Assembly (NCBI RefSeq): GCF_020103725.1
Contig: NZ_JAHXBG010000005.1
Span: forward strand, 1-64,000
DNA length: 64,000 bases
Direction of reading: 5' to 3'
Origin: Hyalangium gracile
GTDB taxonomy: Bacteria > Myxococcota > Myxococcia > Myxococcales > Myxococcaceae
Shown: piece after piece, positions 6,807 through 35,642 of the stretch
Layout of the letters: every line of letters begins with the position of its first letter
How positions within the stretch are numbered: position 1 is the stretch's first letter
Translations under genes and position numbers: made by a program
Notes under the pieces: generated by a model
What the model was told of the DNA's origin: nothing
Seen by the model: only the letters and a program-made list of their open reading frames with translations
Databases searched by the model: none

Positions 6807-7445
6807 ATGAACGTTCGACTCGCCTGGACCGCCGCGCTCGCGGCGGTGTGCGCGTCCGGCTGCGCCGCGCAGAACTCGAAGCTGCCGACGCTGGACATGC
6901 GCTTCTATGAGACGCCCGCCAACGCGATGCCCAAGGAGCGCATCCACGAGCAGTTCATGCTCAACGCGACGCTGCTGGGAGACGCCAACCTGCGCTACCT
7001 CAAGCCCGCCGAGCTGCTGAAGGCGGCGGAGACGGGCTCGGCCCGGGGCGATCCCCAGAAGCTGATGCGCGCCGCGCGCACGCTGGTGCCCGGGGATGGC
7101 GTGGTGCTGCTGGGCACGGTGCGCAACGCGGCCACCGGCGGAGGCAGCGCGAACATGGCCATCTACTCGCTGGCGCTGGCCTGCGAGAAGGCGAACCTGG
7201 ACGAGCCGGGAGACCTGCGCGGCTGCAAGGGCTACGTGCTGCGCGTGACGCGCACCTGGCCCGCGGAGGTCTACGAGCTCAAGGACGCCACCGTGTCGCT
7301 CATCCCCGAGGGAGGCACGGCCCACGGCCGCATCCGCGCGAAGAGCGAGCCGGGCGCGTTCAAGGCCGAGCTCGAGGGCGAGTTCGCCGCGAGCCTCGTC
7401 GAGCTGGGGACGGGGAGCCCGGTCGCCTCGGACTCCGCGCCGTAG
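6807..7445 (+). CDS. Lipoprotein of unknown function
   Basis: 212-aa protein with a signal peptide and lipobox (VCASGC, Cys about residue 19), preceded by GGGAGA as ribosome binding site. I do not recognise a domain. The mature part alternates charged helices and short strands, has Cys pairs near the middle (LACEK...RGCKGY), and carries no catalytic motif I can name. It follows the OmpA-type lipoprotein at 27 bases on the same strand, so a joint envelope role is a reasonable inference and nothing more. Confidence 0.75.
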   Translation: MNVRLAWTAALAAVCASGCAAQNSKLPTLDMRFYETPANAMPKERIHEQFMLNATLLGDANLRYLKPAELLKAAETGSARGDPQKLMRAARTLVPGDGVVLLGTVRNAATGGGSANMAIYSLALACEKANLDEPGDLRGCKGYVLRVTRTWPAEVYELKDATVSLIPEGGTAHGRIRAKSEPGAFKAELEGEFAASLVELGTGSPVASDSAP

Positions 7446-7489
7446 GGCATGCCGCCGGGAGGCCAGCGCCACGAGCCGCGTGGCCTGGC

Positions 7490-8005
7490 CTACCCGTCCC
7501 CCGCGACCGTGCGCGTGAGCACCCAGCTCGCGAAGGCCTCGGGCTGCAGGAAGAGCACCTTCACCTCTCCGAAGCGCAGCCGCGTGCCACTGGCCAGCGG
7601 CGCGGGGATGCGCGCGTCCACGCGGGCGTCACCCACGAAGGTGCCGTTCTGGCTCTCCGCGTCGTGCAGGTGCCACACCCCCGTGCGCTCGTCCTGCTGG
7701 AAGGCGGCGTGGAAGCGGCTCACCGTGGGATCGTCCAGCATGATGTCGTTGTTGGCGGCCCGGCCCACGGTGATGCCGAAGCCCAGCCCCGTGGGGCGCG
7801 CATGCACGCCCTTGCGCACCTCGAAGATGAGCGGCTCGGAGGCCGCGGAGCGCTCCGGCGCGCTCCCCGGCTGCGTCACCCACGCCAGCTGGTGTGCTTG
7901 CGCGGGCGGTGTCTCCCAGATCAGCAACGGCGCGCGCACCTGCACGATGAAGCCCGCGGGATCGCGCAGCGCCGTCCGCGTCAGCATGGAGAAGTTCAGT
8001 GGCAA
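7490..8005 (-). CDS. FHA-domain protein
   Basis: About 171-aa soluble protein with one forkhead-associated domain, a phosphothreonine-binding module. Motifs are GITVGRAANNDIMLDD (conserved GR), SRFHAAF (conserved SxxH) and AESQNGTFVG (NG turn), in the right order at about residues 70-140. The start is taken as TTG at 8005, because GGAGG lies exactly 9 bases upstream of it. The internal ATG at 7987 has no such site. FHA proteins are abundant in myxobacteria and work with Ser/Thr kinases. No kinase is adjacent, so the partner is unknown. Confidence 0.88.
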   Translation of the reverse strand: MPLNFSMLTRTALRDPAGFIVQVRAPLLIWETPPAQAHQLAWVTQPGSAPERSAASEPLIFEVRKGVHARPTGLGFGITVGRAANNDIMLDDPTVSRFHAAFQQDERTGVWHLHDAESQNGTFVGDARVDARIPAPLASGTRLRFGEVKVLFLQPEAFASWVLTRTVAGDG

Positions 8006-8184
8006 GGCCCCGTTCCTCCTCGACGTCCCCGCGGCACCCTTCGCCCGGGCAGTGGCTCCACTCTGAAGCCTGCGCCCCGGGCCTCGCAAGCGCGGCCCCC
8101 GTGGAGGTGTGCGCTCGTAGGCATCGCTTCTCCCTGGAGTGCATTTTCACCGTCGTCTGGAAGTCTGCGGGGGGTTGACGGGAG

Positions 8185-29753: not shown

Positions 29754-29861
29754 GTCCGTCCGCCCTTATCGCGCGCCCCGGGCATCGTCCATCGGAGTCA
29801 CGTCCAATGCTGGCCTGGCGAACATGGCACCGGGTTTCGGGATGGGCTTGAATGCCGCTCC

Positions 29862-30722
29862 ATGTCCTTGCTGACACTCCAGAAGGCACTTCCCCAGCTC
29901 CGGAAGGCGTACAAGGAGCGCCGCCTGATTCCCTTCCTCGGCGCGGGGTTCTCGGCGCCCCTGCGGCTCCCCACCTGGAGCGGGCTCATGAAGTGGATGG
30001 GCGAGGGCCTCCAGTTCACGCCGCCGGAGCTCTTCGAGGTGCATGGCAATGCCCAGCAGCTGGCCGGCTACTTCGACCTGGAGCACCCTGAGAAGCTGCC
30101 GGGCTTCATCCAGGAGATGGAGCGGCGCTTCCATGCGCCCGAAGTCGAAAGGCGGCGTCGGACCTCCATCCAGCATCGAGCGCTCGCGGACTGCGAGTTC
30201 CGGACGATCTACACGACCAACTTCGAGCACCACATCGAGCGGGCCCTACGAGACAGGGACAAGAAGCGGAAGGTCTCGGTGCTCGCCCGGCTCCAGGACT
30301 TCATGCGTCCCGTGGATCCGGCCGCGTGCAGCGTCATCAAGTTCCACGGAGACCTGGCATTCCCCGAGACGATCGTCCTGACCGAGAGCCAGTTCTTCGA
30401 TCGCCACCTCCTGGAGGCCGCGCCCGATCAGCGCCTGCGCAACGATCTGCTCGGCAATGCCTTCCTCTTCCTCGGGTACAGCTTCAGCGATCCCAACATC
30501 CGGTACATCTGGCACCGCATGTACCGGCTCCGCCAGGAGAGCATGGAGGGCGCGGACAAGAGCGCCTCGCCCCCACCGGAGCTGCGTTCCTACTGGGTCA
30601 CCTTTGGCGCGGGCCTCGTCCAGCCCCGGCTGCTCGAGGAATGGCACATCGATGTGATCGAGCTCGACGCGAGCGACAAGTCCAAGAGCGTCGCCGAGCT
30701 GCTCAACGCCCTGCACTCCTGA
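29862..30722 (+). CDS. SIR2-like (NADase-fold) protein, probable defence effector
   Basis: 286-aa protein. SIR2 signatures are intact and in order: NAD-site glycine loop LIPFLGAGFSAP (G27-S31), TTNFEHHIER (N120), the catalytic-type His in IKFHGDL (H162) and FLGYSFSDPNI (G205-D210). There is no Cys4 zinc ribbon as in deacetylase sirtuins, so it belongs to the SIR2-like group that in bacterial immunity hydrolyses NAD+. The next gene, a HAM1-like protein, starts 7 bases downstream. I infer that this is the killing effector and the HAM1-like protein its sensor. No strong ribosome binding site is seen before ATG 29862, perhaps reflecting low expression. Confidence 0.88.
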   Translation: MSLLTLQKALPQLRKAYKERRLIPFLGAGFSAPLRLPTWSGLMKWMGEGLQFTPPELFEVHGNAQQLAGYFDLEHPEKLPGFIQEMERRFHAPEVERRRRTSIQHRALADCEFRTIYTTNFEHHIERALRDRDKKRKVSVLARLQDFMRPVDPAACSVIKFHGDLAFPETIVLTESQFFDRHLLEAAPDQRLRNDLLGNAFLFLGYSFSDPNIRYIWHRMYRLRQESMEGADKSASPPPELRSYWVTFGAGLVQPRLLEEWHIDVIELDASDKSKSVAELLNALHS

Positions 30723-30729
30723 GGCACCG

Positions 30730-31278
30730 ATGCCCACCATCTACTTCAGCACGTCGAACGAGCAGAAGTACGAGGACGTGAAGCAGTGCTTCCTCAGCTG
30801 CAAGAACCCTCCGCGGATGCTGTGGCAGAAGGTACCGGAGATGCTCTCCGGCGATCTCGAAGAGGTCGTCCGCACCAAGGCGCTCGAGGCGTACAAGCGG
30901 GCGCAGGTACCGCTCTTCGTGGAGCACGGCGGGCTCTACATCGAGTACCTGAAGCAGCTGCCGGGTCCGCTGGTGAAGCCATTCTGGGAGGCGCTGGAGG
31001 GAGACCTCTGCGCCATCATCCCCCCGGGAGCCTCGCGCCGCGCCCACGTCATTCAGCAGGTCTGCTACTGCGATGGACGGAAGCTCCAGGTCTTCGAGGG
31101 ACGCATTGACGGCCGCATCGCCGACCAGAAGGAGGGCACGGGCATCCACTGGGAGCCCGTGTTCATCCCCGACGGTCAGCACAAGACGATGGGGCAGATG
31201 TCGATCGCCGAGAAGGTGACCTACAGCGGCAACGCCAAGGCCTACGCGCAGCTCCGGCGCGCGCTCCGCATCCGGTAG
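30730..31278 (+). CDS. HAM1/ITPase-like protein with altered active site, probable nucleotide sensor
   Basis: 182-aa protein of the non-canonical purine NTP pyrophosphatase fold, closest in appearance to eukaryotic ITPA. Alignable landmarks are FSTSNEQKYEDVK (phosphate-binding T-S-N...K), LEEVVRTKALEAYK, FVEHGGLYIEYLKQLPGPLVK, EGRIDGRI, WEPVFIPDG and MSIAEK. Deviations: the usual Glu-Asp before S/T-G-L is Glu-His (E65-H66), the F/W-D-P motif is W141-E142-P143, and the C-terminal S-H-R is S166-G167-N168. Binding may persist while hydrolysis is lost. GAGG precedes the ATG. Hand counts of two 60-base lines gave 60 and 65 percent GC, below the neighbours, which is compatible with transfer. Confidence 0.85.
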   Translation: MPTIYFSTSNEQKYEDVKQCFLSCKNPPRMLWQKVPEMLSGDLEEVVRTKALEAYKRAQVPLFVEHGGLYIEYLKQLPGPLVKPFWEALEGDLCAIIPPGASRRAHVIQQVCYCDGRKLQVFEGRIDGRIADQKEGTGIHWEPVFIPDGQHKTMGQMSIAEKVTYSGNAKAYAQLRRALRIR

Positions 31279-31358
31279 CCCACCGCTACCTGAGGTTGGC
31301 GTCTCCAGGTGACACGGTCAGGGGCTATCACACCCCCTCGTCCTGGGCGCCCGCAGCG

Positions 31359-31451
31359 ATGACCTCCCACCAAGAGCGGAACATGCTCTGGGTCGTCCAG
31401 AACAACCTGTTCAACGAGCGCGGGTTCCATGATTCTGAACCGGATCCCTAG
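31359..31451 (+). pseudogene. Possible 5' remnant of a lost gene
   Basis: A short in-frame stretch of 30 codons starting at ATG 31359 and stopping at TAG 31449-31451. It has mostly G/C third positions and a protein-like N-terminus (MLWVVQNNLFNERGF). To me this resembles the first strand of ATP-grasp-type proteins. It is cut off abruptly where the convergent cyclase gene ends, with overlapping stops. It could also be a tiny gene or chance. Recognition is from memory of the family pattern only. Confidence 0.35.
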
Positions 31452-34510: not shown

Positions 34511-34748
34511 GACCGGCTTCTGGCCCCGCGAGACCGTGCACCTGGAACGGTGCCGCAAGGCCCCTCACAAGAGAGGCATCCCCGCGCTACAGGCATCCCC
34601 GGATATCGGGAACTGGACGGAGGATCTGCGTGCTGTTGAGCAGCGCACGTCGCTCCCGTTCGGAAGCGAAAACCGGATCATCCAGGAAACGGAGGCACAC
34701 TTCATTACCGCGTCACGGTTGCCATCTTGTCCCACTGAAAGGACCCCC

Positions 34749-35642
34749 ATGACAGAGATGACCCCCCAGGCGCGGAGCCGTGCTGGAGCGCAGTGCCGAG
34801 CGAGTGGAGCAGGCAGGTGGATGCTGGCCGCGGCGTTGCTGGTCGCCGCGACTGCGGGCTGTGGCCCCGTGGAGGACTCGTCCGAGCCCTCCTCGCTGAG
34901 CACCGGGAGCCAGGAGCTCGACTCGATGAACGGGCTCAGCGCCAACGGGCTCAGTGCCAACGGCTTGTCGGCCAACGGGCTCAGCGCCAACGGGCTGGCC
35001 ACCAACGGGCTGGCGACGGCGAGCTTCAAGGCCTGGTTCGGAGCGGATCCGGCCCTGGGAGACATGGTGATGCGCTACCTCGTGAGGTGCGCCGTCCCCG
35101 CGGGAGAGACGCGGTCCCATGTCGATGCGAGCACGGGCCAGCGCTACACGTGGAGCGGGAGCCTCGGCCTGGCTCCGAGGTGGGCCCGTGGCGCCGTCGC
35201 CAGCCGCACCGAGCAGCAGATCATCAGCGCCTGCCTGATGGCGCATGTGAACCGGTATGGAGAGAGCGTCCCCATCTCCGTGCTGGGGCACGACGCCGAC
35301 GGCGACATCATTCCCTACAGCCGCCGCGAGCTCGGCAACTACGTGGCGCGAGAGGCCTGCTTCTTCGGCAACCTCTTCACGCAGGAGGGGCTCTACTTCG
35401 GCACGGACCAGCTCGTGGGCAACCACTCCATGTACCTGACGCGGGCCTGCGCCGGGCTGGGAGGCGGCTCCGCCACGGCGTGCGCGCCCATGCGCTTCGT
35501 CGGCGACTGCTGGTCGAGCTGCGTGCGCGATCCCCGCGGCCCGTTCTACTGGAGCTGCAGCCACAACGGGGTGAGCTACCCGGCCATCACCACCCGGATG
35601 CGCGCCGCGGACTACGTGGAGCTCTTCAAGGACAACGACTGA
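34749..35642 (+). CDS. NGLSA-repeat lipoprotein
   Basis: 297-aa lipoprotein (lipobox TAGC, Cys about residue 38 after a long n-region). Right after the anchor lie six pentapeptides NGL(S/A)(A/T), then a globular domain of about 210 residues with paired cysteines (CAVPAG, SACLM, REACFF, RACAG, TACAP, GDCWSSC, YWSCSHNG). I do not recognise the domain. The Asn-Gly-Leu repeat after a lipobox is something I associate with myxobacterial surface proteins. The divergent neighbour is the cyclase-ATPase gene 238 bases away. Function unknown. Confidence 0.82.
   Translation: MTEMTPQARSRAGAQCRASGAGRWMLAAALLVAATAGCGPVEDSSEPSSLSTGSQELDSMNGLSANGLSANGLSANGLSANGLATNGLATASFKAWFGADPALGDMVMRYLVRCAVPAGETRSHVDASTGQRYTWSGSLGLAPRWARGAVASRTEQQIISACLMAHVNRYGESVPISVLGHDADGDIIPYSRRELGNYVAREACFFGNLFTQEGLYFGTDQLVGNHSMYLTRACAGLGGGSATACAPMRFVGDCWSSCVRDPRGPFYWSCSHNGVSYPAITTRMRAADYVELFKDND
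34929..35018 (+). repeat. 15-bp tandem repeat, six copies
   Basis: Six consecutive 15-base units encoding NGLSA (four) and NGLAT (two). The typical unit is AACGGGCTCAGCGCC, with synonymous differences in the third copy (ggcttgtcg), so the array is not brand-new. Copy number is likely to vary among relatives and it may act as a flexible stalk. Confidence 0.85.

Follow-up and report, generated by a model that had tools for sequence, protein, structure and literature searches.

The 64 kb window analyzed here is the whole stretch from position 1 to 64,000 on the forward strand of contig NZ_JAHXBG010000005.1 from Hyalangium gracile (GCF_020103725.1). Near its middle lie a SIR2 gene and, downstream of it, a HAM1 gene, separated by a gap of 7 bases. 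The HAM1 open reading frame runs from ATG to stop without interruption. The HAM1 protein matches Pfam Ham1p_like with 103.3 bits (cut-off 22.5), and the SIR2 protein matches SIR2_2 with 85.5 bits (cut-off 24.5). The genes on the left of the pair (ABC ATPase, ABC-2 permease, and aldo/keto reductase) and on the right (a cyclase/ATPase/TPR regulator) are oriented oppositely, and the pair therefore forms its own two-gene unit. A Pfam scan of the nine neighbors, two of which match no family, recognized no defence genes, and PADLOC assigned no family to the HAM1 protein. Elsewhere in the window, positions 34740-35642 (+) encode a predicted protein containing NGLSA/NGLAT repeats in tandem (Pfam GLTT), and the copy of this protein in congener G006 is 67% identical.

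Table 1 Features of the SIR2-HAM1 locus (positions in the window).
Feature	Position	Strand	Details
Accessory stretch between ABC ATPase and cyclase genes	29754-31447		1,694 bp; holds the SIR2-HAM1 pair only
SIR2 (KomC-like) gene, predicted NADase effector	29862-30722	+	286 aa; Pfam SIR2_2; best solved match 9v0g_E
SIR2 N120 in TTN, predicted catalytic	30219-30221	+	aligned with the Asn that is Ala in the 9v12 chain
SIR2 H162 in KFHG, predicted catalytic	30345-30347	+	aligned with KomC H146, changed in 9xvc 'KomBC(H146N)'
HAM1 (KomB-like) gene, predicted nucleotide receptor	30730-31278	+	182 aa; Pfam Ham1p_like; best solved match and model match 9v0g_A
HAM1 E37 = ITPA Glu44, kept	30838-30840	+	alignment
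HAM1 E65-H66 = ITPA E71-D72, catalytic Asp to His	30922-30927	+	alignment
HAM1 I139-H140-W141-E142-P143 = ITPA F149-G150-W151-D152-P153	31144-31158	+	alignment; I139 and E142 common to L086 only
HAM1 S166-G167-N168 = ITPA S176-H177-R178 (SHR signature)	31225-31233	+	alignment

The SIR2-HAM1 pair is accessory and is present in addition to a housekeeping RdgB. Congener G006 has an empty site: its ABC ATPase and cyclase genes (proteins 88.7% and 87.9% identical to those of the window) are separated by 51 bp, and the pair is missing from between them. The empty site is readable in this one congener. In G001 and G003 the ABC genes are present and the cyclase gene was not found within 16 kb, and in G002, G004, and G005 there is no close match to the ABC permease, which leaves the site unreadable in both groups. 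A complete RdgB, with the D-D and SHR motifs intact, is encoded elsewhere in the genome (G000:C7, 216.5 bits). The HAM1 protein of the pair matched seven NCBIfam pyrophosphatase models, all below cut-off, including TIGR00042 (85.1 versus 145.35) and NF011396 (95.4 versus 203).

The Kongming system (KomABC) was reportedly described by Zeng et al. in Science in 2025. According to the available parts of two papers (PMC12774641, PMC12948488), KomA together with a phage kinase and the host NDK makes dITP, which binds KomB and activates the NADase KomC. Among solved structures, the closest chain to our HAM1 protein is 9v0g_A (E=9.4e-43; KomB, 6.2e-22), and the closest to the SIR2 protein is 9v0g_E (E=3.3e-87), followed by KomC 8zsf_D (5.4e-36). 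PDB entry 9v0g, titled 'Helical structure of KomBC Complex', was released on 2025-12-17, and the same HAM1 chain is found in 9v0y, 9v0z, 9v12, 9v2k, 9v2m, and 9v57. As both proteins are closest to chains of 9v0g, the pair consists of a KomB-like and a KomC-like protein. The sequence stretches of 9v0g (177 and 276 residues) are found letter for letter within the pair at L081, a locus of genome G102 in which the SIR2 gene also precedes the HAM1 gene (hereafter SIR2-first). Therefore, a complex of the SIR2-first clade has already been solved, and its depositors named it KomBC. The literature matches listed included no publication on the 9v0g complex and none on myxobacterial KomBC, which weakly suggests that none is in print.

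The HAM1 protein was modeled with AlphaFold2 from a 10-row alignment, three rows of which are HAM1 proteins from viral contigs. This model (mean pLDDT 92.1) replaced a single-sequence fold with a mean pLDDT of 38.8. It superposes on 9v0g_A (Z 27.1, rmsd 1.6, 179 residues), on ITP-bound ITPA 2j4e_G (Z 25.1, rmsd 1.7, 176 residues), on the ITP complex 2dvo (Z 25.2, rmsd 1.9, 181 residues), and on dITP-KomBC 9xvc_A (Z 23.9, rmsd 1.9, 180 residues). These superpositions indicate that the HAM1 scaffold is retained, as the initial annotation of this gene had stated, and the altered sites were placed by alignment. In the SIR2 protein, the predicted NADase residues N120 and H162 are intact.

HAM1 residues were compared in a 33-row MAFFT alignment of 17 SIR2-first, nine KomB-type, and seven canonical rows. 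The alignment includes human ITPA, Mj0226, and PH1917 (sequences of PDB chains), as well as E. coli RdgB and the RdgB of the same genome. ITPA numbering was anchored on SHR as residues 176-178, following the accessible part of PMC5075207, which describes these residues as the specificity signature of ITPA and Arg178 as a postulated base contact. Glu44, Asp72, Arg178, and Phe149 are named among the crucial residues of human ITPA in the portion available of PMC9016069. All seven canonical rows have Asp at the D72 and D152 positions and an intact SHR. The initial annotation had pointed to three altered motifs in the window HAM1, and the alignment with ITPA, RdgB, and KomB-type proteins places them at the catalytic and base-recognition positions. 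Among the four crucial ITPA residues, the window HAM1 keeps Glu44 (E37) only, and the other three are H66, N168, and I139. The change from F149 to I139 comes in addition to the three motifs first noted. The phosphate motif T/S-S-N...K is present, as had also been noted (T8, S9, N10, and K13), and K50 (ITPA K56), K83 (K89), K162 (K172), S166, and W141 are kept as well. We note that the E37 column holds Ser in E. coli RdgB and the K50 column holds Gly in two archaeal rows, which is probably local misalignment or real variation. These two columns are less telling because canonical rows vary there. Since E37 is kept, residual hydrolysis by HAM1 is possible. From the loss of H177, R178, and F149, we infer that base preference may have changed.

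We collected relatives of the pair to see how far these changes spread. HAM1 matches at E<=1e-25 were found in 16 of 195 genomes of the phylum. Setting aside G007 (KomB-type) and G008 (no SIR2 on a short contig) leaves 14 genomes with 15 SIR2-first loci, and two further loci from Bacteroidetes bins bring the total to 17, including the window. Repeats were left out: L041, L043, L044, and L045, like some loci from the genome searches, duplicate others already in the count, L112 and L115 recur as L113, L114, and L116, and L086 and L128 are the same locus. L111 and L112 have identical HAM1 proteins; L112 was kept in the residue table, which thus has nine KomB-type rows and eight sequences, and was omitted from the tree. 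A disrupted copy (L108) was left out, the longer HAM1 proteins of L009, L032, L038, and L039 were unused, and L007/L036, which is without SIR2, was taken as a canonical row.

SIR2 and HAM1 are the only genes common to all 17 SIR2-first loci, and flanks are common only to close relatives. A search of these loci for a conserved third gene found none; other components occur in two to four close relatives, and one component present in 15 loci has coordinates antisense to SIR2 and HAM1. In all ten NG86 comparisons (five pairs, both genes), dN was lower than dS, with synonymous sites possibly saturated in distant pairs. YN00 agreed in six of the ten comparisons and gave no estimate in the other four. 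Five KomB-type loci are present in viral contigs. A scan of viral contigs with the HAM1 alignment confirmed none of 37 candidate stretches as a relative, and tblastn of the window HAM1 against a phage collection found no relative. Vibrio KomB gave one weak match (22%) to phage sequences.

The catalytic Asp is replaced in all 26 KomB-like rows (25 His, 1 Gln): His is found in 17/17 SIR2-first and 8/9 KomB-type rows, the Gln belongs to the Zymomonas KomB-type row, and none of the seven canonical rows has the change to His. His177 is also absent from all 26 KomB-like rows. Arg178 is absent from 17/17 SIR2-first rows and present in 9/9 KomB-type and 7/7 canonical rows. Glu at the D152 position (W-E-P) and Ile at the F149 position are found in two of the 17 SIR2-first rows, the window and L086. 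L086 is the nearest relative of the window HAM1 (63% identical over 180 aa), and S-G-x recurs there. Across the SIR2-first clade, the residues on the triphosphate side (N, K, E, and K) are for the most part preserved. The changes thus look layered, with the Asp lost throughout the KomB-like proteins, Arg178 gone from the SIR2-first clade, and E142 and I139 confined to the branch of the window. They had initially been read as one pattern; the changes themselves are real, but their spread differs, as one is KomB-like-wide, one marks a clade, and one is limited to two members. An origin of these changes in sequencing or frame error or in chance is ruled out by the intact open reading frame, by H66 in 17/17 SIR2-first rows, and by the recurrence of E142 and S-G-x in L086.

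Phylogenetic trees show the same division. In the HAM1 tree (32 rows), one group unites the 17 SIR2-first rows (100/99) and another the eight KomB-type rows (100/100); together they are separated from the seven canonical rows (95/88). The window HAM1 branches with that of L086 (100/98). The sister relation between the SIR2-first and KomB-type rows is less sure than each group, because long branches meet there, as the program warned. The SIR2 tree (25 rows) contains the same two groups (100/100). Such matching groupings are expected if receptor and effector travelled together.

We searched for KomA with a profile built from four adenosine deaminases located beside KomB-type pairs. The profile recovered all four, together with ordinary deaminases on other contigs of the window genome. 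It found no KomA anywhere in the 64 kb of the window or in any of the remaining 16 SIR2-first loci, which span 3.5-19 kb each; two of these are short (3.5 and 7.6 kb) and bounded by contig ends. Deaminase-family matches were found in all 16 genomes searched, so that KomA function in trans is possible. With the same profile, the contig C3 deaminase of the window genome reaches 169.9 bits, versus 433-572 for the four training genes. Among KomB-type pairs, L061, L107, L111, L112, and L115 have a deaminase, and L037, L062, L109, and L110 are without one and keep the Arg. Loss of KomA is therefore ruled out as a simple rule for loss of the Arg, which is kept in three KomA-less Pantoea pairs and in the myxobacterial L037. 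In the alignment, the Arg split runs with clade and with gene order, not with KomA loss. L037 (positions 6830-8180, genome G007, Myxococcaceae) is itself a KomB-type HAM1-SIR2 pair, with HAM1 first, the Arg kept, and no deaminase within 12.9 kb.

Comparisons with known systems place the pair closest to the 9v0g complex. Both consist of a SIR2 and a HAM1 protein, the HAM1 proteins are 42% identical, and both have His for the catalytic Asp and no Arg at the SHR site. The matching L081 locus also has no KomA in the stretch examined. The window HAM1 departs from that of 9v0g at three sites: E142 replaces D, I139 replaces F, and S-G-N stands where 9v0g has S-P-L. Kongming (KomBC structures 8zsg and 9xvc) likewise joins a HAM1 receptor to a SIR2 effector, with the same Asp-to-His change in most KomB-type proteins. 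However, it has KomA, its HAM1 gene precedes SIR2 in the loci inspected, and KomB-type proteins keep the Arg of SHR, whereas the window has SIR2 before HAM1 and Asn in place of the Arg. Since KomA was sought beside the pair and not found, the pair is not Kongming itself. The KomB-KomC pairs on Pantoea plasmids also combine HAM1 and SIR2, with no adenosine deaminase in three loci inspected, but they belong to the KomB-type clade, with HAM1 first and the Arg kept. Pantoea accounts for 95 of 102 plasmid records matching KomB; other plasmid matches (Acinetobacter, Novosphingobium, and Streptantibioticus) lay outside the locus comparison. In all three Pantoea plasmids inspected (L062, L109, and L110), the pair is directly upstream of a yebG-family gene. 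Pyrophosphatases of the ITPA/RdgB/HAM1 family share the Ham1 fold and domain and the phosphate-side residues with the window HAM1, in which the equivalents of Asp72, Asp152, His177, Arg178, and Phe149 are all changed.

A SIR2 NADase domain is also found in Thoeris ThsA, in which a ligand-binding domain is part of the same protein and a TIR protein is the partner, according to the part of PMC12948488 available. PADLOC ThsA models match the window SIR2 (best 9.4e-27), and the best model covers SIR2 residues 14-225 and profile positions 12-211 of 478. In the window, the sensor is instead a separate HAM1 protein. A Pfam search at E up to 1 found only SIR2_2 in the 286 aa SIR2 protein, with no ThsA ligand-binding domain (SLOG or macro). 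No TIR family, as expected for ThsB, was found at E up to 0.001 among the nine neighbors (two without any family). On these two results, we reject membership in Thoeris.

We believe, with a probability of about 80%, that the pair is a two-gene sensor-effector module of the KomBC type with no KomA beside it, in which a nucleotide bound to a HAM1 that does not normally hydrolyze it would release the SIR2 NADase. SIR2 and HAM1 would form one complex, perhaps helical like 9v0g. Infection would raise the level of a nucleotide, and HAM1 would bind it through the kept triphosphate side (T/S-S-N..K, E37, K50, and K162). HAM1 would not hydrolyze the nucleotide normally, because the catalytic Asp is His. 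Nucleotide binding would then switch on the SIR2 NADase, NAD+ would fall, and the cell would stop before the phage spreads, an anti-phage role that we infer. The best solved relatives of the two proteins are the two chains of one KomBC complex, which supports the KomBC-type reading, as do the matching SIR2 and HAM1 trees, the replaced Asp in all KomB-like rows, the restriction of common genes to SIR2 and HAM1 in the 17 loci, the accessory site, the separate RdgB, dN below dS, and the precedent of Kongming; against it count the HAM1 identity to KomB of about 30%, the lack of recognized defence genes among the neighbors and of a PADLOC family for HAM1, the possible supply of KomA function in trans, the KomA-less pairs that keep the Arg, the kept E37, and the long branches behind the sister relation. 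That the pair works like KomBC is quite probable, and it would then be of a known kind, with the structure of a clade-mate already deposited.

The ligand is the most uncertain part of the KomBC-type reading. As there is no KomA beside the pair and H177 and R178 are lost, we rate some other nucleotide no less likely than dITP itself, and the absence of the base-reading His and Arg from 17/17 SIR2-first rows leads us to lean slightly toward such a ligand. The SIR2-first clade may thus be an immune receptor of two genes that is complete in itself, reading a non-dITP nucleotide directly from the pool without a dedicated signal synthase, a proposal that we hold tentatively, at somewhat under even odds. 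The ligand could be, for example, a phage-made or phage-displaced (d)NTP. The change from D72 to His would keep it unhydrolyzed, without H177 and R178 HAM1 would no longer be tied to the hypoxanthine code, and in the branch formed by the window and L086 (I139, E142, and S-G-x) the pocket would have shifted once more. Roughly one chance in three goes to the alternative that the pair matches Kongming in everything except how its genes are ordered and laid out, and senses dITP (or ITP/XTP) that comes from a distant deaminase or from the chemistry of infection. This alternative falls within the KomBC-type reading and differs in ligand only, and its probability is not to be added to that of the reading. 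It would fit the name KomBC given to the same-clade complex 9v0g, the deaminase-family genes elsewhere in the genome, and the kept W141, K162, and S166. However, the SIR2-first rows have lost the base-reading residues, the Arg of which every KomB-type row keeps, no deaminase lies beside any of the 17 SIR2-first loci over the stretches searched (3.5-19 kb; 64 kb for the window), and the C3 deaminase scores far below the KomA training genes.

Two further explanations do without a nucleotide signal. HAM1 could act like an antitoxin, keeping the SIR2 NADase silent without sensing any nucleotide, until SIR2 is set free by a phage event, for instance the loss of HAM1 or its binding to a phage protein. 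The tight two-gene unit and the strict co-occurrence in 17 loci are compatible with such restraint, but simple restraint has no need of the triphosphate-side residues that are largely kept, and the relative KomB binds dITP, as stated in the available parts of PMC12774641 and PMC12948488. We consider restraint unlikely. Less likely still is that HAM1 is an active NTP pyrophosphatase for house-cleaning, with an atypical pocket, and that its place next to SIR2 is incidental. The Ham1p_like score above the Pfam cut-off, E37, and the phosphate-side residues would agree with this role, but SIR2 co-occurs with HAM1 in 17 loci, and we reject the role on the loss of the catalytic Asp, the pyrophosphatase models below cut-off, and the intact RdgB elsewhere in the genome. 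The altered residues, the kept scaffold and phosphate side, the grouping with KomB-type proteins, and the separate RdgB make a receptor likelier than a house-cleaner. The initial proposal of a receptor that binds a nucleotide without hydrolyzing it thus gains support from the KomB-type grouping and from RdgB; it was incomplete in that it left out the SIR2 partner.

Enzymes that clean up the nucleotide pool have been recruited as receptors in immunity. The SIR2-first clade keeps the receptor-NADase pair, without an adjacent signal-making enzyme or the known base-reading residues, which raises the question of which nucleotide is watched and whether a dedicated signal is needed. Genes of this SIR2-linked HAM1 kind that are annotated as pyrophosphatases are probably misnamed. 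A HAM1 gene with the catalytic Asp changed to His beside a SIR2 gene can serve as a search mark for more of them.

Several other HAM1 and KomBC loci were seen during the comparison. In two other Myxococcaceae, L038 (5190-7057, -) and L039 (5825-7780, +) encode HAM1-domain proteins of 387 and 397 aa, in which the Asp72 and SHR sites are altered by eye. The HAM1 gene in both adjoins an open reading frame resembling an RNA or DNA ligase core (EKLDGSC motif; read by eye), and these loci may possibly represent another HAM1-derived module. In L040 and L042 (Bacteroidetes bins; 4545-7.4 kb), an overlapping methyltransferase-like open reading frame precedes the pair and a Dam-type methylase-like one follows it (read by eye), and these flanks are common to both. 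DNA similar to Vibrio KomBC was found in 80 of 5,426 E. coli genomes. At the one E. coli locus inspected (L111), adenosine deaminase, HAM1, and SIR2 genes are surrounded by genes whose names, for example ydaV and DUF1367, are of phage type. The KomB-KomC copy on Pseudomonas silvicola plasmid p1 (L108) has annotated HAM1 and SIR2 genes far shorter than usual, as if decayed.
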